DNA of 64,000 nucleotides from an uncultured Roseateles sp. (GTDB taxonomy: Bacteria; Pseudomonadota; Gammaproteobacteria; Burkholderiales; Burkholderiaceae_C), in contig NZ_CAMFJS010000021.1 of the NCBI RefSeq assembly GCF_945956965.1, positions 1 through 64,000 on the forward strand. The letters run 5' to 3'. This document shows, in pieces, positions 26,883-53,730 of the stretch; positions within the stretch are counted from its first letter, which is position 1; each line of letters opens with the position of its first letter. The translations under genes were made by a program, and so were the position numbers. The notes under the pieces are model-generated. The model was not told the DNA's origin and did no database searches. It saw only the letters and a program-made list of their open reading frames with translations.

Positions 26883-26883
26883 G

Positions 26884-36497: not shown

Positions 36498-36998
36498 TTA
36501 ACCGCGCCGGTCCAGCCAGGCATCCAAGGACCAACGCCCCGCGCCCCACAGCGCCACCAGCAGCAAGAGCACGCCCCAGAGCTGATGGCCGGCCAATGCG
36601 GCCGGGGCCAGATCACTCAAACTCAGCACCGCCATAAAGTTGACGATGGTGAGGCCCAGCGCCGCAAAGCGCCCGCCCAGTCCCAAGACCAGCAAGACCG
36701 GCAAAGCCAGCTCCCCCGCGGTCCCCAGATAAGCCGCCAGCTCAGGCGGCAACAGCGGCACGTGGTATTCGTCTTCAAACAAGGCCAAGGTGCTGGACCA
36801 GTCTCGCAACTTGGACAAGCCGGAGAGGAAGAACACCTGGGCCACGTAGCAACGCGCCAACAGCAGGGACAGTGACTGCGCTTGGCTCAAAAGCTGGCGC
36901 ATCCAAGCTGGCAGCGGCGGGCCAGCCGCATCGCTGAGTTGCGAGCCCAAGCCAGGATCGCGGCACAAGCGCAAGAAAGCGAATGCGATGGTTTTCAT
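36498..36998 (-). CDS. DoxX-family membrane protein of the bufferin/gig-type operon
   Basis: This four-helix DoxX protein of 166 residues has SLLLARCYVAQVFFLSGLSK, then three more hydrophobic segments (LALPVLLVLGLGGRF, LTIVNFMAVLSLSDL, HQLWGVLLLLVALWGAG). DoxX-like proteins are the fourth member of gig/bufferin operons (GigT, BufD), where they are thought to support metal or redox handling at the membrane. It is the last gene of the operon, with a GAGGAC ribosome site in the 10-bp gap after the DUF2063 gene. The name is by context; the family alone is very diverse. Confidence 0.82.
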   Translation of the reverse strand: MKTIAFAFLRLCRDPGLGSQLSDAAGPPLPAWMRQLLSQAQSLSLLLARCYVAQVFFLSGLSKLRDWSSTLALFEDEYHVPLLPPELAAYLGTAGELALPVLLVLGLGGRFAALGLTIVNFMAVLSLSDLAPAALAGHQLWGVLLLLVALWGAGRWSLDAWLDRRG

Positions 36999-37008
36999 TC
37001 AATCGTCC

Positions 37009-37800
37009 TCAAAGGTTTGAATCGCTCTGTGATGGCGAAGTCGGGCCGGGCGCATCCGCTTGGACGGGCGCCAGTGTTTCGACCGCATGTAGCCACCCTC
37101 GCTGCAAAGCTTGTTGAAGCCAAGCGCCAAAATCAAAGTCCGGCGCCGCAGCCAAGGCTTCTTGCAAGGCACGGTCGAGGTCGAGCCCTTGCAGCATGGC
37201 GCCCATCAATGCGGCATCGCCAGCTCCCAAAATCTGTTGCTCGGCGCGCCAGCCTTCTCGCCACACCAGCAATGGCTGGCGGGGCAGGTCCACATTCAGG
37301 CCACAGGCCTGCGGCAACAAGTGCAAGAGGCTCAGTCCCGGCCGCAGCCGCAAGCGCATCAACTCCGGCGACTGGCTTTGCAGCAAATTCAATGAATCCA
37401 CATCCAATCGGCTGTCCGCAGCCCGCTCAGCCACATGCCGGGCCCAGCCCAGGCGAGCCAGATCGCACAGCCAGGCTTCCACGCCGGGCTGAGCCGCCAA
37501 GAATTCAGGCAAGGCCTGACCCCAGGCCCCCAAATCGCCCTGGCTGGGTGGGCTGGCGCGCCAAAAAGCCCAGGCCAGGGAGTCGAATGACGCCCGCCCC
37601 AGTTCAGTCAAGAGCAGCGGATGGACGGCGGCCAAGGAACGCGCCGCCAAAGCTTGGGCATTGCGCCGATACGCTTGAAGGCCGTCCGCCACGCCAAGGC
37701 CAGGCAGAGCACGCCAAGCGGTCCCTGCCAATAGCACTTGCGCTATCGCCGAGTTGCCGGCCTGAATCGCAGCCAGCAAGGCTTGCTGAGCGGCGATCAT
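37009..37800 (-). CDS. DUF2063 (BufC/GigB-like) partner of the MNIO enzyme
   Basis: This is a 263-residue protein. The N-terminal domain ([55 protein letters not shown]) is the DUF2063 fold once annotated as DNA-binding. In MNIO operons it acts as the partner that helps present the precursor to the DUF692 enzyme. The start at 37800 overlaps the bufB stop in ATGA. The track start at 37884 lies inside that gene. DNA binding is not supported by the context. Confidence 0.84.
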
Positions 37801-38669
37801 GCGGGCCAGGCCTCGCTCATGAGGCGCTGAGCCTCGGCCGCCTCGTCCAGCAGCACCGCGAGCTCGGGCACATCGTTGTCCCACTCGATCAGGCTGAGCT
37901 GCGGCCCAAAGCGCCGAATGGCATGGCGATACACCTGCCAGACCTCCGGACTGGCGCGGCTACCGTGGTCGTCAATCACGATGCCGGGCAGCTCGGCGTG
38001 GCCTGCCAGATGGATCTCACCCACCAAGCCCGGGAGTAGAGCATCAACCCAGGCGCAGGCGGCATCTGCGGCGGCCGCTTTGTCCAAGCCCGCATTGCGG
38101 GCGTTGACAACCAAATTGTTCACATCCAGAAGCAGACCGCAGCCGCTGCGCTGGCAGAGCTGATTGAAGAACTCGGGCTCGGCCAAGGTGTCATTGCCCC
38201 AGGCCAGATAGGCGCTGAGGTTTTCGACCAGGAGCTGGCATTGCAGGCGTTCTTGCACCTGCTGCACATGCCGGCACATGAGCGCCAGGCTTTCGTCGTT
38301 GAAAGCAATCGGCAGCAGATCGCTGCCATGCACAAAGCCAGGCCCCTTCTGGCTGGCGGGCACACGGGCGAAGCTGGCATGCTCCGACACCCGCAGCGGT
38401 TCAACGCGATCCACCAGATCTGCAAGTTGGTCCAGATGAGCACCGTCCAGCCCGCAAGCCGAACCGAGCGACAAACCCACCCCATGCAGGCTGATGGGGT
38501 AATGCTCGCGCGCCCCCATCAGCACCGCCATGGCAGCACCGCCGCGGGCAAAGAAGTTCTCGGAATGAAGCTCCAGGAAGCGCAGCGGCGGGCGCTGCGC
38601 CATCAGGCACTCGTAATGCGGCTGGCGCCAGCCGATGCCCACCGATGAGGAAGTTTCCCGCAGCTTCAT
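37797..38669 (-). CDS. MNIO-family (DUF692) multinuclear iron oxygenase, BufB/GigA-like
   Basis: MNIO enzymes use two or three iron atoms to modify cysteines in RiPP precursors. This 290-residue protein starts [12 protein letters not shown] and has the metal-ligand blocks [63 protein letters not shown] and EWDNDVPEL. These match DUF692 (TIM barrel with His/Asp/Glu ligands). Position directly after the DUF2282 precursor and before DUF2063 is the bufferin order. The product would be modified Cys residues that bind copper. The reaction on this precursor is inferred. Confidence 0.93.
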
Positions 38670-38676
38670 CTCATGC

Positions 38677-38967
38677 TCACTTCTTGGCGGCCTTCATCTT
38701 GGCCTTGGCCTCTTCGGCGCTCATGCCGCCCAGGCTCTTGCACTGGCCTTTGGGCACATAGTTCCATTCCTCAGCGGCGTCACCCGCCTTGGACTGGCCG
38801 GCGCAAGAATGGCTGCCGCTCAGGTTGGCGCAGTCGTTCTGCCCGGCTTTGGCAATGCCGTAGCACTTCTCGCGGGCGACTTTGTCGTCAGCTGCGGCGG
38901 CTTGAGCGACCAAGCCAAGAGACAGGGCGCCCGCCAGGGCCGAAGAAACAAGCAGGGAAGTTTTCAT
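38677..38967 (-). CDS. DUF2282 secreted Cys-containing precursor (bufferin/GigP-like)
   Basis: This is a 96-residue protein with a Sec signal peptide ([21 protein letters not shown]) and a short mature part with four Cys at residues 35, 46, 55 and 76. The stretches [23 protein letters not shown] and [12 protein letters not shown] are the DUF2282 pattern. Proteins of this family are substrates of MNIO enzymes; the modified periplasmic product chelates copper in bufferins. The Lys/Ala-rich tail ([13 protein letters not shown]) is likely helical. The start ATG 38967 replaces the track's 39030, which lies before the signal. It is the first gene of its operon. Confidence 0.9.
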
Positions 38968-39101
38968 GATCAGTCCTCGTAGGTTTAGACGGGGTAAAGC
39001 GTCTGTGAATTCAAGCCAACAGCGAATCACTCGCTCCCTTGGGTCGCACCAACCCCCGTCCTACTTACACTGCGCACAAGAAAAATTTTGGAGAGCCCCG
39101 C
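38968..39101. promoter_or_regulatory. Divergent promoter region between the RiPP operon and the ECF sigma gene
   Basis: These 134 bp separate two divergent operons and must carry both promoters. On the minus strand TTGAATTCAC and, further on, CCGTCTAAAC precede the precursor gene; on the plus strand GCACCAACC and CCTACTTACA precede the sigma gene. None is clear enough to assign. Ribosome sites GAGGACTGATC and GGAGAGCCCCGC are visible. Confidence 0.5.
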
Positions 39102-39662
39102 ATGACCGACATGGCCCACCGCCTGCAAGCCCTGCGCCCCCAGCTGCTGAAGTACGCCCAGCTACAGCTGCGCAATGCCGCCTGGGCAGAAGACGCGGTC
39201 TCCGAGACCTTGCTGGCCGCGCTGGAAAAGCCGCAGAGCTTTGCTGGCCAGTCGCAGCTCAAGACCTGGCTGATCGGTGTGCTCAAACACAAGCTAGTGG
39301 ACCAGATCCGCCGCAATAGCAAAGAAATGTCCACCACCGCCGAAGACGGGCAAGACCTGGACGACGACCTGTTCCGCCCCGACGGCCATTGGCGAGAGTC
39401 CCCACAAGACTGGGGTGACCCCGAACACTGCCTGCGCCAGATTGACTTCATGCGCGTGCTCGAAGCTTGCGTAGAACATCTGCCCGGCCAGCAAGGCCGC
39501 CTCTTCATGATGCGGGAATGGCTGGAACTCGACAGCGAAGAAATCTGTAAGGCGCTGGGCATCAGCTCGACCAATCTCTGGGTCATGTTGCACCGTGCGC
39601 GTTTGCGCCTGCGCGAATGCCTGCAACTGAACTGGTTCGACGCCCAAGGATCCCAAGCATGA
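39102..39662 (+). CDS. ECF-type RNA polymerase sigma factor (RpoQ-like)
   Basis: This is a 186-residue group-IV sigma factor. Region 2 covers LLKYAQLQLRNAAWAEDAVSET, LAALEKPQSF, LKTWLIGVLKHKLVDQIRR, and region 4 covers QGRLFMMREWLELDSEEICK, ALGISSTNLWVMLHRARLRL. It belongs to the subgroup that precedes a small zinc-finger anti-sigma protein. Its position facing a DUF2282-MNIO operon recalls the rpoQ-gig region of Cupriavidus. ATG 39102 follows GGAGAG; the track start 39039 adds no domain. The likely target is the divergent operon, which is an inference. Confidence 0.92.
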   Translation: MTDMAHRLQALRPQLLKYAQLQLRNAAWAEDAVSETLLAALEKPQSFAGQSQLKTWLIGVLKHKLVDQIRRNSKEMSTTAEDGQDLDDDLFRPDGHWRESPQDWGDPEHCLRQIDFMRVLEACVEHLPGQQGRLFMMREWLELDSEEICKALGISSTNLWVMLHRARLRLRECLQLNWFDAQGSQA

Positions 39663-39975: not shown

Positions 39976-42516
39976 ATGCGCGATTTGTCTGCCCCGCTAG
40001 CCTGGCCAAATGGCAAGCCAGAGTCTGGTGAGGCCACCGCCGCCCAATCCGCCGACAAGCACAGCTTTGTCTGGCCCATGCCGCCCTATGCGGCATATCC
40101 GCTGGCCACGCCGCAGACCTCGGCCGAGCCCTGCGAGGTGCTGGGCACCAATGGCAGCCGCAGCCCTGGCCATTTGATTCTGCTGGCCCCGTCAGAGCGG
40201 GTGGCGCAAATCATGGTGCCGCCGGCCCGCCATGCGATTCCGCTGAAGTTCCCGCAGTTCCGCGTGCTCAAGCTGCTGCGCCCGGTGCAAGTGCCGCCGC
40301 GCGATGACACCCTGGCCTTGGACCAGCGCCCGCGCAGCCCGTTCAAGCTGCGCTTTGTGGGCGGCGGCGAGCTCAAGGGGCGGACCATCGGCCATGTGCA
40401 AAATGAGCTGGGCCTTTTCCTATTCCCCCCGCTGAGCGATAGCGACGACTCGGTGCTGCGCGTCTTCATCCCCAACGAGTCGCTGGACAAATTCGAAGTC
40501 GGCGAGCGCATCGGCGATGTGCTCTTGAAGGAAAACCTCGCCACCGCCGCGCAGATCAACGAAGCCGCCTTCGCTCAGCAGGAAATGCGCTCGCGCCGGG
40601 TGGGCGACATCCTGGTGGCCGAGCGCATCGTCAGCGCCGAACAGCTGATGCTGGCCATTGAACAGCAGGCCCGCATGCCCATGGTGCGCATCGGCGAAGC
40701 CTTGCTGGCCCTGGAGCTGATCACCGAAGAGCAGCTGGAATATGCGCTGGAGCTGCAGCGCGAAGACCGTTCGGTGCCGCTGGGTGAGTTGCTGGTGCGC
40801 CGCGGCATCGTCAGCCGCCAGGCCTTGCAATCGGCCCTGGCACGCAAGATGGGCTATCCGATCGTGGACGTGGACGCCTTCGCCATAGAGGCCGATGCCG
40901 TCAAGACCCTGCCCTTTGCCGTGGCCAAGCGCCTGGAAGTGCTACCCCTGCTGATCCGCGATGGCCGCCTGATTGTGGCCATGGAGGACCCGACCCGGCG
41001 CGAGGCGCTGGACGAGGTGGAGTTCATCTCCCAGCTCAAGGTCACCCCAACGCTGACCAAGCTGGGCACCCTGGCCTCGGCCATCCCCAATACCTACGAG
41101 CGCTACGGCAGCGACAACGTCAGCCGCAGCGACTTGATGCCCAATGTGCAAGGCCTGGACTTCTCGCTCGACCGGGCCGATCAGCTGATCGAGACCCTGG
41201 AGCGCGAGGTCAATGGGCGCGAAGGGCGTGATGGCCGCGATGACGACACGCCGATCGAGCAAAGCGACAACTCGCTGGTGCGGCTGATCAACACCATGAT
41301 CATCGACGCCAGCACCCAAGGCGTGTCCGACATCCACATCGAGACCTATCCAGGCAAGGAAAAGCTCAAGATCCGCTTCCGCCGCGACGGCGTGCTCAAG
41401 CCCTATCTGGAGCTGCCCAATACCTACCGTAACGCCATGATCGCCCGCATCAAGATCATGTGCGAGCTGGACATCTCCGAGCGCCGCAAGCCGCAAGACG
41501 GCAAGATCAATTTCGCGCGTTTCTCACCCCAGCACCGCCTGGAGCTGCGCGTGGCCACCATCCCCACCAATAACGGGCTGGAAGATGTGGTGATGCGTTT
41601 GCTGGCCTCCTCCAAGCCGCTGCCGCTGGAAAAGCTGGGCCTGACCGCGCGCAATCTCGAAGAACTCAAGAAAGCCGTCGCCCGCCCCTACGGCATGGTG
41701 CTGTGCGTGGGCCCCACGGGCTCCGGAAAAACCACCACCCTGCACTCGGCGATGAGCTATATCAACACGCCCGAACGCAAGATCTGGACCGCCGAAGACC
41801 CGGTGGAAATCACCCAGGCCGGCCTGCGCCAGGTGCAGGTCAACCCCAAGATCGACTGGACTTTCGCCAAGGCCTTGCGGGCCTTTTTGCGCGCCGACCC
41901 GGACGTGATCATGGTGGGCGAAATCCGCGATGAAGAAACCGGCGAAATCGCGGTTGAAGCCTCGCTGACCGGCCACTTGGTGATGTCCACCCTGCACACC
42001 AATAGCGCGGCCGAGACCATCACCCGCTTGTTGGACATGGGCATGGACCCCTTCAACTTTGCCGACTCGCTGCTGGCCGTGCTGGCCCAGCGCCTGGTGC
42101 GGCGCTTGTGCACCAGCTGCCGCACTTCGCAGCCAATGACCCAGGCCGAGCTGGACGAAATCCTGGACGACTATCTGAAAATCTATCCGGCCGAAGCCCG
42201 CCCGCCCCGCCAAACCGTGCTGGACGAATGGACCAAGGCCTACGGCCAGAACGGCCAGAACGGCCAGATCCTGCGCTACCACAGCCCCGGTTGCCCGGTG
42301 TGCGAGAACAGCGGCTTCAAGAGCCGCGCCGGCCTGCACGAGTTGCTGGTGGTCTCCAAGACCTTGCGGCGCCAGATCCAGACCGGCGCGCGTGCCGAGG
42401 AGCTGCTGCAGACCGCCTTGATGGAGGGCATGCTGTCCTTGCGCCAAGACGGTATTCTCAAAGTCTTGCAAGGCATCACCACCATGGGCGAAGTCCGCGC
42501 CACCAGCAACGCCTAG
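39976..42516 (+). CDS. GspE/PilB-family pilus ATPase with doubled MshEN region
   Basis: This cytoplasmic secretion ATPase has 846 residues, about 270 more than the next one. An N-terminal part of about 175 residues includes FKLRFVGGGELKGRTIGHVQ and LRVFIPNESLDKFEVGE, a domain I cannot name securely. Four consecutive MshEN motifs follow at residues near 178, 207, 237 and 267 (RIGDVLLKENLATAAQI, RVGDILVAERIVSAEQL, RIGEALLALELITEEQL, PLGELLVRRGIVSRQAL). Then come the ATPase with GPTGSGKTTT and DPDVIMVGEIRD and two Cys pairs (CTSC, CPVC). It starts the MSHA locus, 19 bp before mshE, and may be its paired sensor ATPase. Confidence 0.88.
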   Translation: MRDLSAPLAWPNGKPESGEATAAQSADKHSFVWPMPPYAAYPLATPQTSAEPCEVLGTNGSRSPGHLILLAPSERVAQIMVPPARHAIPLKFPQFRVLKLLRPVQVPPRDDTLALDQRPRSPFKLRFVGGGELKGRTIGHVQNELGLFLFPPLSDSDDSVLRVFIPNESLDKFEVGERIGDVLLKENLATAAQINEAAFAQQEMRSRRVGDILVAERIVSAEQLMLAIEQQARMPMVRIGEALLALELITEEQLEYALELQREDRSVPLGELLVRRGIVSRQALQSALARKMGYPIVDVDAFAIEADAVKTLPFAVAKRLEVLPLLIRDGRLIVAMEDPTRREALDEVEFISQLKVTPTLTKLGTLASAIPNTYERYGSDNVSRSDLMPNVQGLDFSLDRADQLIETLEREVNGREGRDGRDDDTPIEQSDNSLVRLINTMIIDASTQGVSDIHIETYPGKEKLKIRFRRDGVLKPYLELPNTYRNAMIARIKIMCELDISERRKPQDGKINFARFSPQHRLELRVATIPTNNGLEDVVMRLLASSKPLPLEKLGLTARNLEELKKAVARPYGMVLCVGPTGSGKTTTLHSAMSYINTPERKIWTAEDPVEITQAGLRQVQVNPKIDWTFAKALRAFLRADPDVIMVGEIRDEETGEIAVEASLTGHLVMSTLHTNSAAETITRLLDMGMDPFNFADSLLAVLAQRLVRRLCTSCRTSQPMTQAELDEILDDYLKIYPAEARPPRQTVLDEWTKAYGQNGQNGQILRYHSPGCPVCENSGFKSRAGLHELLVVSKTLRRQIQTGARAEELLQTALMEGMLSLRQDGILKVLQGITTMGEVRATSNA

Positions 42517-42535: not shown

Positions 42536-44278
42536 ATGGACGCCGATCTGAACCCCAGCCCCGACAACAGCGGCGCCGCCGCGCCGCCAAAAAAGGTCAG
42601 ACTCGGCGATGTGCTGGTGCAGCAGCAGCTGATCTCCGAGCAGCAACTCAGCCAGGCGCTCGAATTGCAGCGCGCCAGCGGCAAAAAGCTGGGCCGTTTG
42701 CTGATCGATGCCGGCCTCATCACCGAAGAGGCCCTGGCCCATGTGTTGGCGCGGCAGTTGCGCATTCCCTTCGTCAACCTCAAGACCTTCCCGCTCAAGA
42801 CCGAGCTGGTGCGCCTGCTGTCAGAAACACCGGCGCGGCGCTTCCGCGCCATCGTGCTGGAAGATCGCGGCGAGGCCTTGCTGGTGGCCATGGCCGATCC
42901 GCTGGACTTGTTTGCTTACGACGAGCTGAGCCGCGTGCTCAAACGCCGCATCAGCATGGCGGTGGTGGCCGAGAGCCAGTTGCCCACCGCTTTTGACCGC
43001 CATTACCGCCGCAGCGAGGAAATCAGCGGCCTGGCCAAGGCGCTGGAAAAAGACATCGGCGACGCGGTCGACTTCGGCGCCTTGCAGGCCAGCGTGGGCC
43101 AGGAAGGCGCGCCCGTGGTGCGCCTGCTGCAAAGCGTGTTTGAAGACGCCACCCAAGCCGGCGCCTCGGATGTGCACATCGAGCCGCAGGAAGGCGAACT
43201 GCTGATCCGCACCCGCATTGACGGCGTGCTGCAAACCCAAACCCAGGCCGATAAGCGCATTGCCGCCGCCTTGTCGCAGCGGCTCAAGCTGATGGCCGGC
43301 CTGGACATTTCCGAGAAGCGCCTGCCGCAAGACGGCCGCTTCACCCTGCGCCTGCGCGACAAGACGATTGATGTGCGCCTGTCCACCCTGCCCGGCCAGT
43401 ACGGCGAGTCGGTGGTGATGCGTTTGCTGGGTCAGGGCGCGGCCATTCGCCGCCTGGGCCAGATCGAGATGCCCGCCGATATGCTGGCGCGTTTTCGCGA
43501 GATCCTGGGCCAGCAATCGGGCATGGTGCTGGTCACCGGCCCCACTGGCTCGGGCAAGACCACCACGCTTTACGCGGCCCTCAGCGAGCTCAATGCCGAG
43601 CAAAGCAAAATCATCACCGTGGAAGACCCGGTGGAATACCGCCTGCCCGGCCTGACCCAGGTGCAGGTGAACGAGAAGATCGAGCTGGACTTCGCCCGCG
43701 TGCTGCGCGCCACCTTGCGCCAGGACCCGGATGTGATTCTGGTCGGTGAAATGCGCGACCCGCAGACGGTGGAGATCGGCCTGCGTGCGGCCATCACCGG
43801 CCATATGGTGCTGTCCACCTTGCACACGCGCGACGCCATGAGCACGCCGTTTCGCCTGCTCGATATGGGCGCGCCGCCCTTCATGGTGGCCACCTCGCTG
43901 CAGGCGGTGATCGCCCAGCGCCTCTTGCGCGCTGTGTGTGAGCATTGCGCCGAAGACCATAGCCCAAATGCGCAAGAAGCCGCCTGGCTGGCGGCAGTGG
44001 CCGGCGCCGAGGCCGCCAGCATCAAGCCCCGTAAAGGCGTGGGCTGCTCGCAATGCAATGGCACGGGCTATGCCGGGCGCCGCGGCATTTACGAAATGCT
44101 GGAAATGAATGCCGATATGGCCGTGGCCGTGCAGCGCGGCGACGCCGCCGGCTTCATGCAAGCGGCCCGCCTGAGCCTTAAAGGCAAGACCCTGGCCGAC
44201 CGCGCCCTGGCCCTGGTCAAGGCGGGCAAGACCTCGCTGAGTGAGGCCATGCGCATCTCTTTTGACAACGACGACTGA
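42536..44278 (+). CDS. mshE: MSHA pilus assembly ATPase MshE
   Basis: This hexameric motor ATPase of 580 residues drives polymerisation of MSHA pilins. The N-terminal MshEN domain, which binds c-di-GMP in Vibrio MshE, has two motifs (RLGDVLVQQQLISEQQL and KLGRLLIDAGLITEEAL). The catalytic part has GPTGSGKTTTLYAAL, the Walker B region DPDVILVGEMRD, and zinc Cys pairs CEHC and CSQC. It overlaps mshG by 1 bp. c-di-GMP control is expected by homology but the binding arginines were not tested against a structure. Confidence 0.93.
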   Translation: MDADLNPSPDNSGAAAPPKKVRLGDVLVQQQLISEQQLSQALELQRASGKKLGRLLIDAGLITEEALAHVLARQLRIPFVNLKTFPLKTELVRLLSETPARRFRAIVLEDRGEALLVAMADPLDLFAYDELSRVLKRRISMAVVAESQLPTAFDRHYRRSEEISGLAKALEKDIGDAVDFGALQASVGQEGAPVVRLLQSVFEDATQAGASDVHIEPQEGELLIRTRIDGVLQTQTQADKRIAAALSQRLKLMAGLDISEKRLPQDGRFTLRLRDKTIDVRLSTLPGQYGESVVMRLLGQGAAIRRLGQIEMPADMLARFREILGQQSGMVLVTGPTGSGKTTTLYAALSELNAEQSKIITVEDPVEYRLPGLTQVQVNEKIELDFARVLRATLRQDPDVILVGEMRDPQTVEIGLRAAITGHMVLSTLHTRDAMSTPFRLLDMGAPPFMVATSLQAVIAQRLLRAVCEHCAEDHSPNAQEAAWLAAVAGAEAASIKPRKGVGCSQCNGTGYAGRRGIYEMLEMNADMAVAVQRGDAAGFMQAARLSLKGKTLADRALALVKAGKTSLSEAMRISFDNDD

Positions 44279-45522
44279 TGCAAGCCTTTGCCTGGCGAGG
44301 ACGCAATAACCGCGGCGAATTGCTCGATGGCGTGATCGACGCCACCGACGCCGATGCCGTCGCCGCACAGCTGATGGCCGGCGGCGTCATCCCCGTCAGC
44401 ATTGCCCTCAATGGCGGCAGCGGCCCCAACGTCGGCGCACCCCAGCAGAACTGGCTGCAAATGCTGCAGAACCGGCCGGTCAGCACCGAGGACTGCCTGG
44501 TCATGACCCGCCAGCTCTACACCTTGCAAAAAGCCGGCGTGCCTATCTTGCGCTCGCTCGCGGGTCTTGAGGCCTCGACCGCGCAGCCGGCCATGATAGC
44601 CCTGCTGCAAGACCTGCGCGCCAGCCTGGACCAGGGCCGCGAACTGGCCACGGCCATGGGCCGGCACCCCAAGGTCTTCAGCCCTTTTTACATCGCCATG
44701 GTGCGGGTGGGCGAGATGACCGGCAAGCTGACCGAGGTGCTGCTGCGCCTGTCCCAGCATCTGGAGTTTGAGCTCGATATCCGCGCCCGCATCAAGCAAG
44801 CCCTGCGCTATCCGGTGATGGTGCTGGTCGCGATGGCGATTGCCATCATCGTCATCAATATCTTCGTTCTGCCCACCTTCGCGGCGGTGTTTGCCGGCTT
44901 CAAGGCCGAGCTGCCGTTGATGACCAAGCTGCTGCTGGGCTTTTCCGCCTGGACCCTGCGCTGGTGGCCCATGGTGATTGCGGGCACGGTCGGCTTGGTG
45001 ATGCTGATCCGCAGCTATCTGGCCACGCCGGGCGGGCGCTACCGCTGGGACCGCCGCAAGCTGCGCCTGCCGATTGCCGGCGAAATTGTGCTCAAGGCCA
45101 CACTGGCCCGCTTTGCCCGCAGCTTTGCTCTGGCCTACAGCTCGGGCGTGCCCATCAGCCAGGCCATGACGGTGGTGGCGCAGACGGTGGAGAACGCCTA
45201 CATCGGCAGCCGCATCGAGCAAATGCGTGACGGCGTGGAACGCGGTGAAAGCATCTCACGCTGCGCCGCTGCCTCCGGCGTCTTCACCCCCATCGTCTTG
45301 CAAATGATTGCCGTGGGCGAAGAGACCGGTGAGCTCGACGGGCTGATGATGGAAATCGCCGGCATGTACGAGCGCGAAACCGACTACAGCATCAAAGGCC
45401 TCTCGGCCTCCATCGAGCCCGTTTTGCTGCTCATCATCGGCGTGCTGGTGTTGATCCTGGCGCTGGGCGTGTTTCTGCCGCTGTGGAACCTGGGCCAGGC
45501 GGCCATGGGCCGTGGCGGCTGA
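44278..45522 (+). CDS. mshG: MSHA platform protein MshG (GspF/PilC family)
   Basis: This inner-membrane platform protein of 414 residues recruits pilins at the base of the pilus. It starts MQAFAWRGRNNRGELLDGVI and has two homologous T2SSF domains (ARGF-like RQLYTLQKAGVPILRSLAGL and RFARSFALAYSSGVPISQAM). Membrane segments are VMVLVAMAIAIIVINIFVLPT, WPMVIAGTVGLVMLI and PVLLLIIGVLVLILALGVFL. It follows mshE with a 1-bp overlap. mshF and mshB, seen after mshG in Vibrio, are absent. Confidence 0.93.
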   Translation: MQAFAWRGRNNRGELLDGVIDATDADAVAAQLMAGGVIPVSIALNGGSGPNVGAPQQNWLQMLQNRPVSTEDCLVMTRQLYTLQKAGVPILRSLAGLEASTAQPAMIALLQDLRASLDQGRELATAMGRHPKVFSPFYIAMVRVGEMTGKLTEVLLRLSQHLEFELDIRARIKQALRYPVMVLVAMAIAIIVINIFVLPTFAAVFAGFKAELPLMTKLLLGFSAWTLRWWPMVIAGTVGLVMLIRSYLATPGGRYRWDRRKLRLPIAGEIVLKATLARFARSFALAYSSGVPISQAMTVVAQTVENAYIGSRIEQMRDGVERGESISRCAAASGVFTPIVLQMIAVGEETGELDGLMMEIAGMYERETDYSIKGLSASIEPVLLLIIGVLVLILALGVFLPLWNLGQAAMGRGG

Positions 45523-45753
45523 GATCAAGGAGCAGGGCGTGATGGACTGCACGCCCTTGTGCGACACGCAGAAGATTAACTTGGCAAAAGTCTGCAATTT
45601 CTCAAACAAGGCCGGCGCCGCCCGATATAGAGTGTGAGACAGAGCTTGGGTGTTGCCTGCTGGTGCTGAGTATTGAGGGCACGAGAGGCATTCACTGCAT
45701 CAAAGGCATTGACGATTTTTCCGACTTTCCGACTCCCCAACCGAAGGACAACT

Positions 45754-46158
45754 ATGAAAAAGCAAGCCGGCTTTACCTTGATCGAACTCGTCATGGTCAT
45801 CGTGATCTTGGGCATCCTGGCCGCCGTGGCTCTGCCCAAGTTTGTCGATCTGAAGACCGATGCCAAACAGGCTGCCGTGGCCGGTGTGGCCGGTGCCCTG
45901 AGCAGCGCCTCGGCCGTCAACTACGCCGCCCGCAAGGTCAAAGGCACGGTGGCCAGCGCCACCAACACCACGGTCCCCATCACCAAGTGCAACGATGTGG
46001 CCAATGCCCTGCAAGGTGGCATGCCAACGACCGTGATCTTCACGCCCGCCACCGCCGCGAGCGCCGTGGCTGCGGACACGTCCGTCTCCTCCTGCGCCGT
46101 GCAGGACTCGGCCGACGCCACCATCACCGCAACCTTCACCGCCATCGGCATCCTCTGA
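45754..46158 (+). CDS. mshA: MSHA major pilin
   Basis: This is a type IVb-like pilin of 134 residues. The short leader MKKQAGFTLIEL is followed by the hydrophobic helix VMVIVILGILAAVALPKFVD, with the cleavage site after Gly6. Two Cys (TKCNDVAN and SSCAVQD) give the disulfide loop. It has a strong GAAGGACAACT ribosome site and is preceded by a 231-bp gap with room for its own promoter. It is the only pilin in this locus with a free-standing upstream region, which suits a highly expressed major subunit. Confidence 0.9.
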   Translation: MKKQAGFTLIELVMVIVILGILAAVALPKFVDLKTDAKQAAVAGVAGALSSASAVNYAARKVKGTVASATNTTVPITKCNDVANALQGGMPTTVIFTPATAASAVAADTSVSSCAVQDSADATITATFTAIGIL

Positions 46159-46170
46159 GCGGCCAGTGGC

Positions 46171-46710
46171 ATGCGCGGCCCTGCCTCACATGCCCTCGCT
46201 GCGCTGAGCGCCTCTGGCGCACGCCCTGCACCCGCCCGCCCTCGCCTTTGCGAACGGCGGGCGTGTTCATTCAGGAGCCAGGGTTTCACGCTGATTGAGT
46301 TGGTGGTCGTGATGGTGATGATCGCCGCGCTATCGGTCTTCGCCCTGCCGCGCCTGCTCGACACCGAGATGTGGCGCTTGCGTGCCTTTTCGGATGATTT
46401 GCAAAGTCAGATGCAAGCGATGCTGCGCCTGTCCCTGGTGCAACGCCGCCCCATCATTGCCAGCATCAGCGGCAGCGGCGTGAGCTTCGTTTATGCCGCC
46501 GGGCCTTCGCTAGGCAGCATCAGTTGCCCGGCCACGTCCAGCCCCTGCATTGCGGAGAGCGCGGTCCGGACCATCACCTTCAACAGCGCCAACAGCGGCA
46601 GCAGCATCACCTCCACCGCTGCGGCCATGCCCGTCACGGTCAGCGTCGGCGGCTTCAGCCAGGCTTTTGTGCTGGAGAACGAGACCGGCCTGTTCTACGC
46701 CAGCCCATGA
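46171..46710 (+). CDS. mshC: MSHA minor pilin MshC
   Basis: This is a minor pilin of 179 residues. A long basic leader (about 37 residues, ERRACSFRSQG) precedes the site QGFTLIELVVVMVMIAALSV, with Glu5. The body includes LPRLLDTEMWRLRAFSDDLQ and SISCPATSSPCIAES. The position directly after the major pilin, with a 12-bp gap, fits mshC. The leader is unusually long and an internal start is not obvious. It overlaps mshD by 4 bp. Confidence 0.84.
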   Translation: MRGPASHALAALSASGARPAPARPRLCERRACSFRSQGFTLIELVVVMVMIAALSVFALPRLLDTEMWRLRAFSDDLQSQMQAMLRLSLVQRRPIIASISGSGVSFVYAAGPSLGSISCPATSSPCIAESAVRTITFNSANSGSSITSTAAAMPVTVSVGGFSQAFVLENETGLFYASP

Positions 46711-47306
46711 TGAGCACGCGCGCACCAACCGCCCTACGCCTCACGAGCCCCCCCAGGGCCACACGCCAGCGCGGCTTGTCCATGATCGAGCTGATCATGT
46801 TCATCGTCGTCATCGGCGCCGCCTTGGCTGGCGTCTTGAAGATTTTTGTGCAGGCCGGCGCCAGCAGTGCCGACCCACAAATGCAGCGCCAGGCCTTGGC
46901 GATTGCCGAGTCACTGATGGAAGAGGTGCAACTGCAGGCCTTCACTTTTTGCGACCCCGACGACGCCAATCTGGAAACGGCAAGCAGCAGCGCCGGCTGC
47001 GCCAGCCAGGTGGAAAACCTGGGCCCCGAGGCCGGTGAAACCCGCTTCAGCACGCCGCAGTTCGACAACGTCAATGACTACAAGGGCTATGCCATGAACG
47101 CCGGCATCGTCGACATCAATAACGTCCCGGTGCCAGGTCTTGCCGGCTACAGCGCCAGTATCGATGTGGCCAATGCGGCGCTGGGCAACATCAGCCTGGC
47201 CAGCGGCGATGCGCTGCTGATCACCGTCACCGTCATTGGCCCGGGCGGCACGCAAGTTGTGCTCAGCGGCTACCGCAGCCGGCATTCACCCAATGCGGCG
47301 CTCTAA
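46707..47306 (+). CDS. mshD: MSHA minor pilin MshD
   Basis: This is a minor pilin of about 199 residues from ATG 46707, whose ATGA overlaps the mshC stop (ATG 46710 is the alternative). The site is QRGLSMIELIMFIVVIGAAL with Glu5. MshD-like features are QRQALAIAESLMEEVQLQAF and a single periplasmic globular domain. The track start at 46524 reads out of frame through mshC and is rejected. It overlaps mshO by 14 bp. Confidence 0.85.
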   Translation: MMSTRAPTALRLTSPPRATRQRGLSMIELIMFIVVIGAALAGVLKIFVQAGASSADPQMQRQALAIAESLMEEVQLQAFTFCDPDDANLETASSSAGCASQVENLGPEAGETRFSTPQFDNVNDYKGYAMNAGIVDINNVPVPGLAGYSASIDVANAALGNISLASGDALLITVTVIGPGGTQVVLSGYRSRHSPNAAL

Positions 47307-48165
47307 GATTTTTTCCGCACGCGCCAGCGCCCGTCGCCAGGCCGGCTTCACCTTGATCGAGGCGGTCATCGTCATCGTTCTGACGGGCATTCTGGCCACC
47401 ATCGTCAGCGTTTTCATCGTCTCGCCGGTGCAAAGCTATCTGGCCACCGCCGCCCGCACCCAACTGGTCGACCAAGCCGACACCGCCATGCGCCGCATCG
47501 CGCGTGACCTGGCCTTGGCCCTGCCTAATAGCGCCCGCGTCACAGCCAACGGCCTGAGCCTGGAGCTGATTCCCACCACTGGCGCGGCGCGTTACGCCAC
47601 CCAAGGCGCCAACCCGCTGCAATTCGGTGTGCTGGACACCAGCTTCGATCTGGTCGGCCCGGGCCTGAGCCTGGCCAGCGGCCAACAACTGGTGTTCTAC
47701 AACCTCGGCCCCGATGTGCCCGACGCCAATGCCTATGCCGACAACTCATCGGCCGCCGCTCAGGCCAGCTCGAACCGGCGCAGCGCCAGCAATGGTGCCG
47801 GTGTCGCCACCAGCATCAACATGAATTCGCTGGCCGCGCTGCCGGTAGGCCTGTTCGCCGAGCCTTACCGGGTTTACGCCGTCAGCGCCCCCGTCACCTA
47901 CCGCTGCGACGTCAGCGCCGGCGTGCAAACGCTGAGGCGCTACCAGAACTACGGCTTTCAACTCAACCAGCCGGACCCGCCTAGCGGCGGCAGCAGCACC
48001 GTGCTGGCCACCGGCGTCAGCGCCTGCAATTTCAGCTATGCACCGGCCGCCGTGGCGGCACGGGCCGCGCTGGTCACGCTCAAACTGACGCTCAGCGCCG
48101 ACACTCGCTCTGGCACCGAGTCCGTTTCGCTCTACCATGCGATTCACATTGACAACCTGCCCTGA
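47293..48165 (+). CDS. mshO: MSHA minor pilin MshO
   Basis: This is a minor pilin of 290 residues. The site is RQAGFTLIEAVIVIVLTGIL with Glu5, and the family stretch is QLVDQADTAMRRIARDLALA followed by LPNSARVTANG. It includes RCDVSAGVQTLRRYQNYGFQ. MshO is typically larger than the other MSHA pilins. It overlaps mshP by 29 bp if mshP starts at 48137. Confidence 0.84.
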   Translation: MRRSKIFSARASARRQAGFTLIEAVIVIVLTGILATIVSVFIVSPVQSYLATAARTQLVDQADTAMRRIARDLALALPNSARVTANGLSLELIPTTGAARYATQGANPLQFGVLDTSFDLVGPGLSLASGQQLVFYNLGPDVPDANAYADNSSAAAQASSNRRSASNGAGVATSINMNSLAALPVGLFAEPYRVYAVSAPVTYRCDVSAGVQTLRRYQNYGFQLNQPDPPSGGSSTVLATGVSACNFSYAPAAVAARAALVTLKLTLSADTRSGTESVSLYHAIHIDNLP

Positions 48166-48598
48166 GCTGCGGCCTTTGATGCGAGGATTCACGCTGATTT
48201 CCATGCTCTTCATCCTGGTGGTGCTGGCCGCGCTGGGCGCGGCCATGGCCAGGTTCAGCATGCGCCAGCAACTCGGCAGCAGTAGCGAACTGGCAGCGGC
48301 CAAAGCCATGCAGGCCGCCAATGCCGGGCTGGAATGGGCAAACTTTCAAGTGCTTCGTCCTGCGGCGGCGCCCGCTTGTTTCGGCGCCACGAATATCGCC
48401 TTGACCGGCAATCTGAGTGACTTTGTGGTCAGCATCAGTTGCAGCCTGAGCAGCGGCAGCGACGCCGGCAACACCCTGAGCTTCTACCAAGTCACCGCCA
48501 CCGCCTGCAACGCCCCCAGCGCCGGCGCCTGCCCCAGCACGGCGGCCCTCAACCCCAGCTATGTCGAGCGGCAATTGACACGCCGCTTGGTGCGCTGA
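48137..48598 (+). CDS. mshP: MSHA biogenesis protein MshP
   Basis: This is a pilin-like protein of 153 residues. The site region is MRGFTLISMLFILVVLAALG and lacks the Glu5 found in the other pilins, as in tip subunits of the GspK type. It ends YVERQLTRRLVR. ATG 48137 gives a 14-residue leader; ATG 48179 would start at MRGF and is also possible. The gap to mshQ is only 7 bp. Confidence 0.8.
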   Translation: MRFTLTTCPELRPLMRGFTLISMLFILVVLAALGAAMARFSMRQQLGSSSELAAAKAMQAANAGLEWANFQVLRPAAAPACFGATNIALTGNLSDFVVSISCSLSSGSDAGNTLSFYQVTATACNAPSAGACPSTAALNPSYVERQLTRRLVR

Positions 48599-48605
48599 GC
48601 CCGCC

Positions 48606-51600
48606 ATGTTGATCTTGCACAGGCTGAGGCTCCTCTTGCGCTGGCGCGCTTTTTTCCTGGCACTCGCACTCTGCCTGGGCCTGCCTGGCGTTCAAGCCGC
48701 GGCCTATAACTTCCCAGGCAATCTGCCGCCTGGCTGCAGCGCCTCCGGCAGCAACTACACCTGTGGCTCACTCGCCCTGAGCACCGGCGACAGCATCAGC
48801 ATCAGCGCGCCCAAGCCCGCCAATATCCGCTTCACCGGCACACTCGATATCAGCAATAGCGCCACCATCAACGCGGGCGGCGTCGCCAGCGATCTCAATC
48901 TGACGGTGAACGGCGCCCTGACCATGGCCTACCAGACCGTCATCATGGGCAATGTCACAGCAGGCTCGCTGAGCACCGTTGACAACGGGCTGGTGATTGG
49001 CGGCAGTGTCACCGCCACCAGTGGCAGCATTCAGCTGCAAGACTGCGCCTCCATCGGCGGCACGATCAGCAGTGGCACGGGCAGTATTGCCGTGGGGCAG
49101 TTCTGCGTAGTCAACGGCGGCATCAGCAGCACCAGTGGCAGCATCACAACCGGCATGAACAGCCAGATCAAAGGCAATTTGAGCAGCGCCGGTGCCATCA
49201 GTGTGGGCCAGGCCTCCATCATCAGCGGCACGGTGAACAGCAGCGGCAGCACGGTGGATCTGGCCTACCAGGCCCAGGTCAGCGGCAGCATCAGCGGCGC
49301 GGGCAAAGTCACCCTGGGCCAAGCCGCCATCATTGGTGGCGACGTGAGTGCTGGTGGCACGAGCGCCATCAGCCTGGACTACCAAACCCAGGTCAAAGGC
49401 AATCTCAGCACCACTGGCCCCATCACGGTGAGCCAGCAAGCGGTGGTAGGCGGCAAGATCACCGGCGGCACCGGCGCCATCAACTTCGGCTACGGCGCCA
49501 AGGTCAGCGGCGATGTCACCAGCAGCAGCGGCACCATCTTTTTCGAGCAAGCCAGCATCGCCCAGGCCTGCGTGCGCTCCACCGCCTCGGCCAGCATCAC
49601 CCTGGGCTATACGGCGGCCATCAACAGCGTGTGCTGCGGCGCCAGTTGCGGCAATGCCTGCGTGATCAACAACACCGGCGGCGCCATGCCGCCCGCCTGC
49701 TTGCCCACGCCCATCGCGGACTATCACTTTGACGAATGCAGCTTCAAAGGCACGTCCGGCGAAGTCAGCGACAGCCGCGGCAACTACCCTGCCACCACGG
49801 TGAACGGCACCAGCAGCAGCGGCACTGCGCCAACGCTGCTGGACCGCTATGCCGACCTGTCGGGCAGCACCGGCCTTCGCTACATCAGTCCCAATACCGC
49901 CATCCCGATCCCAAGCAGTTGGAGTGTGAGTGCCTGGATGAAAACGCCGCTGTCCACCGGAGGCAGCCAGTACCACATCCTCGCAGCCGTCAATGGCGGC
50001 GGTGATCTGTTCTATATGGATGACAAGAACGGCTTTTTGTGGGGTGCTTATGTGCCCGGCAGCATCGTCAACGGCACGTTCAAGTTCAGCACCCTCGCTG
50101 CGGGTTGGCACCACATCGGCCTCATCGGCAGTGGCGGAAAGACCTCGCTCTACGTGGACGGCGTGTTCAAGGAAACCATCAATCAACAGGCCAAAGGCAA
50201 TCTGGCCTTCATCGGCGCCTCTTGGGATATCGACGCCGGTACCCGGGAAGGTTTGAACACGCAACTGGACGAATTCATGGTGTTTGATAGCGCCATCTCG
50301 GCCGCCAATATCAGCACCATCTACAACAACCAAAAAGCGGGCAAGAACTACGACGGCAGCGCCCGCACACCCAGCAACTGCACCCCGGCGATAGGCAGCT
50401 TTGTGGTGAGTAGTACCAGCTCGGCGTCGACCTGCTCGCCGCAGACTTTCAGCGTCACGGCCAGAGACGCCACCGGCGCCACGCTGAGCGGCTATACCGG
50501 CACCATCAGTTTGAGCACCTCCACCGGCCAGGGCGACTTCTCCATCGGCAGCGGGCCGGCCCCCAGCGGCACCTTCACACCGGGTGCGGCCAACAGTGGC
50601 CGGGCGAGCTACACCTTTGCCGCAGGTGACGCCGGTGTGGTCAATCTGCGCTTGAGCCACAGCTTGGCGCAGAACCTGGTCATCACCGTGCAAGACAGCA
50701 GCATTGCCGCCGCCGTGGGCAGCTCCGGCAGCATTCAGTACCGCGACAACGCCTTTGTCTGGAGCGAGGACTTGGGCAGCCAGATTTACGGCAGCAATGT
50801 CATCGTGGCCGGCCGCAATCATGATCTGCAAGTCGCACTCTGGAAAAAAGATGCCGCCACCGGCAACTGCGCCATCGCCACCGACTACAGCGGCAGCCGT
50901 AACCTCAAGCTTTGGCGCACCGACAGCGGAGGCCCTTGGACAGCGCCCAGCATCATCAGCCCCGCGCTCAGCGTTCCCGCTGCCCGGCCTGCCGCCAACA
51001 ACCTCATCGGCCTGAGCTTTAGTGCCGGCGTCGCCAAGCTGGACCTGGCCAGCACCGACATCGGCAAGTTCAGCCTCAATCTCGACGACGACAGCTTGCT
51101 CTACGCCGCAAGCACCATCAGCGGCAGTCTGGGCTATTTGACCCTGCGCCCCTTTGCCATTGCCGTCACCGGGCTGACCTTGGGCGGCGTCAGCAACCCA
51201 GGCGGAAGCTTGTTCAGCGACCCCAAGTTCGGCGCTGCAGGCGCCACCTTCAGCGCCACCATCGGCGGCTATCTGTGGAGCGCTGCCGGTGACAGCACGA
51301 ACCGCGGCAGTATCGATGCCAGCGCCTCCCTGGCCCAGGTCACGGCGGGCGGCTTGGCGCCAAGCTTTAACAGTCCCATCACCCTGCGCCCCGTGGCGGG
51401 CAGCCAGACCCCCAGCTCCGGCGTGCTGGGCGTGCTCAGCAATGCCAGCGCCACCAACCCCGTCATCAGCGGCTTCAAAGGCGGCACGGTGACGGTGAAT
51501 GACCTCAAGTACAGCGAGGTGGGCAGCTTTCTGCTGAACACCACCGGCGTGCTCAGCAATTTCCTGGGCACAGCCGGGATCAACCTCAATTCCACCGTCT

Positions 51601-52616
51601 TCGTGGGCTCGGTGCAGAACAACCGCATCGGCCGTTTTGTACCGGCCGGCTTTGTGGCCAGCAACACCATCCTCAGTGACCGCCTGGCCGCCGCCTGCTC
51701 ACCCATCTCCACCTTCACCTATCTTGGCGAGACCTTCAAGCTCGGCTTCACCCTGACCGCCCAGAATGTGCAGGGCGGCACCACGCAGAACTACACCGGT
51801 GCCTTTGCCAAGCTGAATCTGGCCGCGGCCAATGCGCTCGACCCTGCCGGCATTCAGGGCACAACGCCCTTCAAGATCGGTGCTCGGCTCAGCGCCAACA
51901 GCAGCGGCACCTGGAATCTGGGCCAATCCACCGACGCGCAGCTCAGCGCCACCGTCTCACGCCTGAGCACACCCGACGGCCCTTTCCCCGGCAGCAGCTT
52001 CGGCATCGCCCCGGTGGACAGCGACGGCGTGGGCATGATGAGCTTCAACCTCGACACCGACAGCCCACCCAATGGCAATGACCGCGCGGCGCTGCGCTCG
52101 GTGTTGGCGCCCTTGACGGCAGTGCCGGTGAATCTGCGCTTTGGCCAGCTGCGTTTGCAAAACGCCATTGGCTCGCAGAACCGCGACCTCAGCATGCGCG
52201 TGCTCGCGCAATACTGGGACGGCAGCAACTTTGTAACTAACACCTTGGACAGCTGTACTTCCATCGATTCCAAAGCGCTGAATTACGGAAACTACCGCAA
52301 GACCTTGAATGCCAGCGATGGCCTCTCGCCTGTCAAAACCTACAAACTGCTCAGCGGCGTCAGCAGCCTGAGCTTGAGCAAACCCGGTGGGGGCCGCAGC
52401 GGCAGCATGGATGTGGCCTTGAGCTTGAGCACCGTGAGCGACCAGAGCTGCTTGCAGAGCTGGACACCCGGTGTAGCAGCGACATTGGCAGCCGGTTTGG
52501 CTTATCTGCAAGGGCCTTGGTGCGCGGGTACGTACAGCAAGGACCCGTCGGCGCGGGCCACCTTTGGCCTCTACCGCGGCTCAGACAATGTGGTGTATCA
52601 GCGCGAAAACTATTGA
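48606..52616 (+). CDS. mshQ: MSHA biogenesis protein MshQ, giant adhesin-like protein
   Basis: This is a 1336-residue exported protein. After a Sec signal (FFLALALCLGLPGVQA) comes a repeat region of about 11 units near residues 95-321 with bactofilin-like rhythm, then a Cys-rich joint (VCCGASCGNACV). A LamG-like domain follows at about 369-590 (IADYHFDECSF, WSVSAWMKTPLS, GWHHIGLIGSGGKTSLYVDG). A long C-terminal part with Ig-like and MshQ-type DUF6701 sequence (LRLSHSLAQNLVITVQ, FVPAGFVASNTILS) ends the protein. It is presumably a surface adhesin linked to the pilus; the ligand is not predictable. Confidence 0.88.
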   Translation: MLILHRLRLLLRWRAFFLALALCLGLPGVQAAAYNFPGNLPPGCSASGSNYTCGSLALSTGDSISISAPKPANIRFTGTLDISNSATINAGGVASDLNLTVNGALTMAYQTVIMGNVTAGSLSTVDNGLVIGGSVTATSGSIQLQDCASIGGTISSGTGSIAVGQFCVVNGGISSTSGSITTGMNSQIKGNLSSAGAISVGQASIISGTVNSSGSTVDLAYQAQVSGSISGAGKVTLGQAAIIGGDVSAGGTSAISLDYQTQVKGNLSTTGPITVSQQAVVGGKITGGTGAINFGYGAKVSGDVTSSSGTIFFEQASIAQACVRSTASASITLGYTAAINSVCCGASCGNACVINNTGGAMPPACLPTPIADYHFDECSFKGTSGEVSDSRGNYPATTVNGTSSSGTAPTLLDRYADLSGSTGLRYISPNTAIPIPSSWSVSAWMKTPLSTGGSQYHILAAVNGGGDLFYMDDKNGFLWGAYVPGSIVNGTFKFSTLAAGWHHIGLIGSGGKTSLYVDGVFKETINQQAKGNLAFIGASWDIDAGTREGLNTQLDEFMVFDSAISAANISTIYNNQKAGKNYDGSARTPSNCTPAIGSFVVSSTSSASTCSPQTFSVTARDATGATLSGYTGTISLSTSTGQGDFSIGSGPAPSGTFTPGAANSGRASYTFAAGDAGVVNLRLSHSLAQNLVITVQDSSIAAAVGSSGSIQYRDNAFVWSEDLGSQIYGSNVIVAGRNHDLQVALWKKDAATGNCAIATDYSGSRNLKLWRTDSGGPWTAPSIISPALSVPAARPAANNLIGLSFSAGVAKLDLASTDIGKFSLNLDDDSLLYAASTISGSLGYLTLRPFAIAVTGLTLGGVSNPGGSLFSDPKFGAAGATFSATIGGYLWSAAGDSTNRGSIDASASLAQVTAGGLAPSFNSPITLRPVAGSQTPSSGVLGVLSNASATNPVISGFKGGTVTVNDLKYSEVGSFLLNTTGVLSNFLGTAGINLNSTVFVGSVQNNRIGRFVPAGFVASNTILSDRLAAACSPISTFTYLGETFKLGFTLTAQNVQGGTTQNYTGAFAKLNLAAANALDPAGIQGTTPFKIGARLSANSSGTWNLGQSTDAQLSATVSRLSTPDGPFPGSSFGIAPVDSDGVGMMSFNLDTDSPPNGNDRAALRSVLAPLTAVPVNLRFGQLRLQNAIGSQNRDLSMRVLAQYWDGSNFVTNTLDSCTSIDSKALNYGNYRKTLNASDGLSPVKTYKLLSGVSSLSLSKPGGGRSGSMDVALSLSTVSDQSCLQSWTPGVAATLAAGLAYLQGPWCAGTYSKDPSARATFGLYRGSDNVVYQRENY
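48890..49570 (+). repeat. Bactofilin-like beta-helix repeats in MshQ
   Basis: Eleven or so degenerate units of 18-21 residues share the pattern xxAxIxGxV followed by a Ser/Thr/Gly turn: for example QASIISGTVNSSGSTVDL, YQAQVSGSISGAGKVTL, QAAIIGGDVSAGG, YQTQVKGNLSTTGPITV. The alternation of Gln/Tyr-type starts suggests a two-unit period. Such patterns build beta-solenoids. The repeat is in the protein; the DNA repeats are diverged. Confidence 0.75.
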
Positions 52617-52666
52617 TGACGTATTGACGACGGGATGACTTGTTTTCACGGATCGGAAGCTAGCAG

Positions 52667-53701
52667 ATGAGATGGCCTTGGGGCAAACAACGCAATACCT
52701 TACGCCTGAGCGTGCGCTGCCACGACGGGCTATTTGCCTATGTGTTGACCGATCAGGCCCAGGCCCCAGACAAGCCGCTTGAGGTGCTGCAATGGGGCGT
52801 CTTGCGCGATCTGCCCGATGAGCCGGAGGCGCGCGCCAAAGCCATTCGCAGCCTGGGCCTGCATGCGGGCGAGGTGCTGGCCCTGCTGGAGCCCAGCCAA
52901 TACCAGATCCTCAAGGTGGACACCCCCAATGTGCCCGCGAGTGAGTTGAAATCAGCCGCGCGCTGGCTGATCAAAGAGTTGGTCGAGGTGCATCTGGATG
53001 ACCTGACCCTCGACGTCATGCATGTGGGCGGCGATGTGCAACGCACCCAGCGCCAGTTGTTTGTGGTGGCGGCCCGCAATGCGGCGATCACAGAGCTCAG
53101 CCAAACCTGCCAGTCTGCAGACCTGAGCCTGAACGTAGTGGACAGCTGGGAATGCGCCCTGCGCAATGTGCAAACCGTGCAGGCCCGCGCCGACGCCATC
53201 CCGGAGCGCGCCACCGCCGCCCTGCTGATGCAGGCCGAGCAATGCCTGCTGACCATCAGCGTGGGCGGCGAGCTGTTCTTCACCCGTCGGCTGGACGGCG
53301 ACCCGCGCCTCACGGCCCGCGCCACCGGCCACCTGACGCCCAAGCCGTTGGAAGAAGCCCCGCTGGGCTTTGAGTACACGCCCGGCACCAGCCTCTCGGG
53401 CTTGGGCATGGGCATGGGAGAAGACAGCGAGGAGTCGGTGCTGATCATCGAGCTGCAACGCTCCATCGACCTGTGGGAACGCTCCTGGCCCGAGTTGCCG
53501 CTGGCCCGCCTCTATCTGCTGACGGCCGAGCATGGCGATCAACTGGCCAGCTTGATGCAGCGTGAACTCGGCCTGCGCACCCTGGCCATACAGCTGCCGG
53601 CGCTGTTCAAAGGCATTGCCGCTGATGCCGACCTGGCCCAACTCAGCGAATGCCTGCCCTTGCTGGGGGCTGCCCTGCGCCAAGAAACCCGCGCACTCTG
53701 A
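52667..53701 (+). CDS. mshI: MSHA biogenesis protein MshI (PilM-like)
   Basis: This is a 344-residue cytoplasmic protein of the actin-like PilM/GspL fold that joins the pilus base to the platform. It starts MRWPWGKQRNTLRLSVRCHD and includes LKVDTPNVPASELKSAARWL, IKELVEVHLDDLTLDVMHVG and an ELQRSIDLWERSWPEL segment. These match MshI. It starts 50 bp after mshQ and probably opens a second transcript segment mshI to mshL, or reads through. ATG 52667 is preceded by AGCAG only. Confidence 0.84.
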   Translation: MRWPWGKQRNTLRLSVRCHDGLFAYVLTDQAQAPDKPLEVLQWGVLRDLPDEPEARAKAIRSLGLHAGEVLALLEPSQYQILKVDTPNVPASELKSAARWLIKELVEVHLDDLTLDVMHVGGDVQRTQRQLFVVAARNAAITELSQTCQSADLSLNVVDSWECALRNVQTVQARADAIPERATAALLMQAEQCLLTISVGGELFFTRRLDGDPRLTARATGHLTPKPLEEAPLGFEYTPGTSLSGLGMGMGEDSEESVLIIELQRSIDLWERSWPELPLARLYLLTAEHGDQLASLMQRELGLRTLAIQLPALFKGIAADADLAQLSECLPLLGAALRQETRAL

Positions 53702-53730
53702 GGCCCAGGACAACACCACCCGACCCCGCC

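Follow-up and report, generated by a model that had tools for sequence, protein, structure and literature searches.

The long-N PilB/GspE-type assembly ATPase described here (846 residues, 39976..42516 on the plus strand of the window, the whole 64,000-nucleotide stretch of uncultured Roseateles sp. DNA that was analysed) carries four consecutive 24-residue MshEN motifs, and this array is real, conserved and more general than an earlier note on the same DNA saw. Our leading interpretation, held with about as much belief as doubt, is that such ATPases form a separate long-N class with a small beta-barrel, two MshEN_N units and one MshEN_C, which would work like MshE and would offer c-di-GMP one competent site and one weakened or altered site.

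The motif starts are residues 178, 208, 238 and 268 (40507, 40597, 40687 and 40777), a constant pitch of exactly 30. On the plus strand, motif 1 covers residues 178-201 (40507..40578, RIGDVLLKENLATAAQINEAAFAQ), motif 2 residues 208-231 (40597..40668, RVGDILVAERIVSAEQLMLAIEQQ), motif 3 residues 238-261 (40687..40758, RIGEALLALELITEEQLEYALELQ) and motif 4 residues 268-291 (40777..40848, PLGELLVRRGIVSRQALQSALARK), the last with Pro for Arg1 and Lys for Gln24. The earlier note had already read four consecutive motifs spaced by about 30 at this place, with starts near 178, 207, 237 and 267. A 24-column PSSM, for which canonical two-motif ATPases other than the long-N ATPase supplied 21 training motifs, scored motifs 1-4 at 22.2, 38.0, 37.0 and 23.7 bits, against -6.0 for the next best window of the protein and a maximum of 13.0 bits over 2000 protein shuffles. 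Motifs 1+2 (42.4 bits) and motifs 3+4 (51.9 bits) each exceed the cut-off of 38 of NCBIfam NF053729, a 53-residue model of the c-di-GMP motif pair, so that both pairs are recognized as units of two 24-residue motifs. Motifs 1+2 alone also match residues 7-67 of Vibrio cholerae MshE (5HTL) colinearly (E 2.8e-6). The MshE of the same locus (42536..44278, plus strand) has the usual two motifs, as previously noted; they score 52 and 52 bits, both being among the 21 training motifs.

The order within the protein is beta-barrel, four motifs, MshEN_C and motor. The motor is a T2SSE ATPase domain (residues 429-840, 41260..42495, plus strand; PF00437, E 2.5e-121) in which Walker A, Walker B and the tetracysteine are legible, and which places the protein among the PilB/GspE-type assembly ATPases. 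Pfam MshEN (PF05157), in practice a model of the C-terminal subdomain, matches only once, at residues 292-372 (40849..41091, plus strand). The subdomain is thus present behind pair 3+4 and absent behind pair 1+2, and the N-terminal region is (MshEN_N)x2 + MshEN_C, or about one and a half sensor domains, rather than the two whole MshEN domains that had been proposed. The single MshEN_C limits the claim of two whole domains, and not that of two sites, because MshEN_N of MshE still binds c-di-GMP in isolation (PMC5013675). The same paper mentions in passing (MshEN_N)2 architectures, which likewise have two MshEN_N units (Wang et al. 2016). V. cholerae MshE (5HTL; PMC5013675) shares with the long-N ATPase the 24-residue motif and, in the second half of the array, the order motif-motif-MshEN_C-ATPase, whereas the long-N ATPase has twice the motif number, a pitch of 30 instead of 29, an extra N-terminal barrel, Pro and Lys in its final motif, and an ATPase domain that does not fall into the clade of the MshE from this locus. 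The barrel (approximately residues 121-176, 40336..40503, plus strand) was delineated by AF2, Foldseek and Pfam; it is all-beta and Sm/SH3-like in the models and resembles Hfq/Sm-type barrels in Foldseek at non-significant E-values (0.05 and worse); of 90 aligned sequences, 35 have a weak DUF6982 match here (E up to 0.01). None of those 90 sequences gave a Pfam PilZ match at E 0.01, and PilZ was rejected as its identity. An Sm/SH3-like barrel ahead of the motif array (40336-40503) is conserved across the order.

Homologues of the motif region at E up to 1e-60 occur in 109 of 301 sampled genomes of the family. Relatives with a name belong to Roseateles, Paucibacter, Pelomonas, Mitsuaria, Rhizobacter, Methylibium, Aquabacterium, Piscinibacter and others, and more distant ones are spread over the order. 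In the ATPase-domain tree, 23 long-N sequences form one clade (100/100) apart from MshE and the other sampled ATPases, one long-N sequence (L020) places outside it, and a second clade (100/98) holds long-array ATPases from genomes outside the class. The long-N ATPase does not group with MshE, the MshE of the locus falling among the other ATPases, and it stays below the cut-offs for PilB (TIGR02538; 537.9 vs 675.65 bits), GspE (TIGR02533; 474.7 vs 630.25 bits) and TfpB (NF053534; 400.7 vs 850 bits). Like Acinetobacter TfpB, a second motor for pilus extension (PMC8213720), the long-N ATPase is PilB-like yet distinct from PilB and shares its genome with a PilB; with a score of 400.7 against 850 the long-N ATPase is not TfpB, and the comparison is by analogy only.

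In MshE, the ligand is contacted by Arg1, Leu2, Gly3, Leu17, Leu21 and Gln24 of each motif, and the effect of mutating these residues has been described (PMC5013675); position 1 may be Lys or Leu as well (PMC11731258). At positions 1/2/3/17/21/24, motif 1 reads R I G I A Q, motif 2 R V G L I Q, motif 3 R I G L L Q and motif 4 P L G L L K. Pair 1+2 therefore retains every Arg, Gly and Gln contact, with several Leu replaced by Ile, Ala or Val, and in pair 3+4 motif 3 is intact (Leu2 to Ile) and motif 4 carries Pro1 and Lys24. Conservation was assessed in 114 sequences at least 45% identical to the motif region, the window sequence included, and all 114 have the four motifs. Gly3 of motifs 1-4 and Gln24 of motifs 1-3 are invariant, as are Pro1 and Lys24 of motif 4 (114/114); Leu21 of motif 1 is Ala or Val in most close relatives. 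The earlier note had regarded loss of the contact residues from most copies as evidence against its proposal, and they are instead retained in most copies across the 114 sequences, so that on the side of sequence this objection falls away. This retention also bears on the improbable reading in which the array serves as a structural spacer or for docking to the platform and has lost c-di-GMP binding, as in XpsE or PilF GSPII-A. Non-binding MshEN homologues are known (PMC5013675, PMC12002112) and motifs 1 and 4 depart from the consensus, but Gly3 and Gln24, ligand contacts in MshE, are kept in motifs 1-3 across the 114 sequences, and conservation within every motif is highest at the contact positions (ligand versus other positions in 90 aligned sequences: 3.29 vs 2.28, 3.61 vs 2.68, 4.02 vs 2.72 and 3.95 vs 2.98 bits for motifs 1-4). 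With 60 GGDEF-domain matches in its own genome, c-di-GMP is likely made by and available in the host.

If the canonical pairing is assumed, the residues predict pockets of unequal quality. In pair 1+2, the first guanine pocket (Arg178, Ile194, Ala198 and Val209) would be thinner than that of MshE and the second appears sound, while the first predicted pocket of pair 3+4 looks perfect and its second would have Pro in place of Arg and Lys in place of the phosphate-binding Gln. The closest precedent is Thermus thermophilus PilF, which likewise holds several MshEN-type units in one assembly ATPase (PMC11731258, PMC12002112), although PilF repeats whole GSPII domains including their C subdomains and the long-N ATPase repeats MshEN_N only, with one MshEN_C. 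Two c-di-GMP per monomer were measured for PilF, and its authors argue against extensive cooperativity (PMC11731258); twelve ligands per hexamer, the number put forward in the earlier note, thus already follow from published data. PilF GSPII-C has three consecutive motifs and binds the ligand with a motif II that is headed by Pro and has an intact Gln (PMC11731258). GSPII-A does not bind; its motifs have non-Gln last residues, motif I contains His, and motif II has Ser first and Arg last, with further deviations (PMC12002112). The positions of Pro1 and Lys24 in motif 4 are also lost in this non-binding domain. Taken together, GSPII-A and GSPII-C make a robust predicted site beside a weak or altered one more likely than two of equal quality.

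The view of two fully functional sites per subunit and twelve per hexamer is therefore one that we doubt, without dismissing it. It draws on the conservation of all four motifs with their contact Gly and aliphatic positions, on ligand binding by GSPII-C despite its Pro-headed motif II, and on GSPII-B Q190E and Q218E, for which structure titles denote c-di-GMP-bound crystal structures, so that binding does not strictly require Gln24 to be intact in both motifs. On the other side, Pro1 and Lys24 occur together in motif 4 with no exception in 114 sequences; GSPII-A, whose motif II has Ser and Arg there and which deviates further, is a non-binder; and motif 1 has Ala or Val at position 21 in most close relatives. 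The sequences thus support the four genuine motifs of the earlier note, but not two equivalent c-di-GMP sites.

Our preferred scheme of one competent and one weakened or altered site depends on the pairing register, for which 1+2 / 3+4 is favoured over a central pair: the pair model accepts each of the two pairs, motifs 1+2 are colinear with MshE, and motifs 3+4 with MshEN_C are canonical. The predicted long-N structure aligns with the MshE-c-di-GMP structure 5HTL over approximately 144 columns (Foldseek, TM 0.74 by target length), and these columns are motifs 3+4 plus MshEN_C, as judged from length and sequence alignments. Behind motif 2, the residues xxMPMV recall the way in which MshEN_C begins after a motif II; this is suggestive only, and would fit duplication of MshEN followed by loss of the first C subdomain. 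A shifted register, in which the working site is the central pair 2+3 and motifs 1 and 4 are structural flanks, is a live rival, although we rate it a long shot. Motifs 2 and 3 are individually the best-scoring (38 and 37 bits) and are not a canonical pair; both retain Arg/Lys1, Gly3, aliphatic residues at 2/17/21 and Gln24, the linker between them is the most conserved of the three, and the deviations lie in motifs 1 and 4. In AF2 models from two runs (34 and 90 sequences), motifs 1-2 were of low confidence both times (worst pLDDT about 53-66), and helix 2 of motif 1 was continuous with helix 1 of motif 2, a modelled fusion that bears little resemblance to a closed MshEN_N bundle. Arrays with an odd motif number, such as Thermus GSPII-C, also count against pairwise units. 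However, the hits of motifs 2+3 to NF053729 come only in two separate pieces, whereas motifs 1+2 follow the canonical order of MshE; motifs 3+4 together with MshEN_C show the canonical MshEN layout, and xxMPMV behind motif 2 looks like an MshEN_C start.

With the 1+2 / 3+4 register, the input region would comprise the small beta-barrel and two successive MshEN_N four-helix units, both linked to the motor by the single MshEN_C. By analogy with MshE and PilF, c-di-GMP would be held between the two motifs of one unit, and its binding would change how the N-terminal region packs against the motor and thereby switch pilus assembly. Our best guess is that motifs 1+2, which we infer to fold as such a unit, form the competent site, one per subunit, and that motifs 3+4, adjoining MshEN_C and with the second Arg and Gln replaced by Pro and Lys, form the weakened or altered one.

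Array length varies among assembly ATPases, with two copies in canonical ATPases, three to four in many, and six in one set of genomes from family f78. Six consecutive motifs at a pitch of 29-30 were found in L164, L166, L167, L168, L169, L170 and L172, from another class of the same phylum; their motifs 2 and 4 are headed by Pro or another non-Arg residue and their odd motifs by Arg or Lys. Seven motif-like repeats occur in two relatives from one genus of the family, L175 (1007 aa) and L176 (996 aa), arranged as four motifs, a linker of approximately 43-59 residues, three more motifs (the fifth weak) and MshEN_C. In the six-motif and 4+3 proteins, too, the final motif ahead of MshEN_C has Lys as its last residue. 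A more speculative proposal, which we consider unlikely as a whole, is that MshEN_N is an extensible repeat (2 to 7 copies) in a distinct, conserved group of assembly ATPases that read c-di-GMP, where array position, e.g. the central pair, would set the site, the last motif ending in Lys would be a fixed coupling joint to the motor, and the stand-alone gene would supply a c-di-GMP-gated second motor for pili encoded elsewhere.

The mshE gene starts 19 bp downstream of the long-N gene, which is plausibly cotranscribed with the MSHA genes here. Window positions 42536-57726 hold an MSHA-type operon with mshE, mshG, pilins, mshO/P/Q-like genes, mshI and mshL, named from position and sequence; the window ORF lists showed no obvious ORF for MshM or MshN. 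In other genomes the same gene lies between unrelated genes, often stand-alone without MSHA genes. MshL (E up to 1e-100) was found in 40 of the 109 family genomes with a long-N ATPase and in 21 family genomes without one, an enrichment (odds ratio 4.7) that ignores the kinship of genomes. Neighbourhoods and co-occurrence together reject an obligate partnership, and the ATPase is statistically associated with MSHA while standing outside the MSHA core. The description as first pilus ATPase of an MSHA locus is accordingly right for its position here but does not extend to the family, where most genomes with the protein lack MshL at 1e-100. Crude ORF calling found no conserved partner gene in the neighbourhoods of stand-alone copies, and searches of PHROGs and plasmids gave no finding. 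Upstream, positions 36498-39662 hold putative DoxX, DUF2063-like, DUF692, DUF2282 and sigma-factor genes that resemble a bufferin operon, and several of them adjoin the ATPase gene in many relatives, even without MSHA genes. A second prepilin-like gene set, PilW/PilX/PilV-like by its N-termini, lies far from the MSHA operon (24793-28107). The genome also encodes a true PilB. The motif scan found no recognizable motifs in the three other MshEN-matching ATPases identified in this genome, so that, within this set, only the long-N ATPase and MshE are clearly motors of the c-di-GMP type.

Because two ligands per subunit were already known from PilF, the surprise is moderate. A caution for annotation is that PF05157 detects only the C subdomain here, and so conceals the motif number. 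The duplicated MshEN_N, the systematic Pro/Lys last motif and the natural series of array lengths make this class well suited for telling ligand binding apart from motor coupling.
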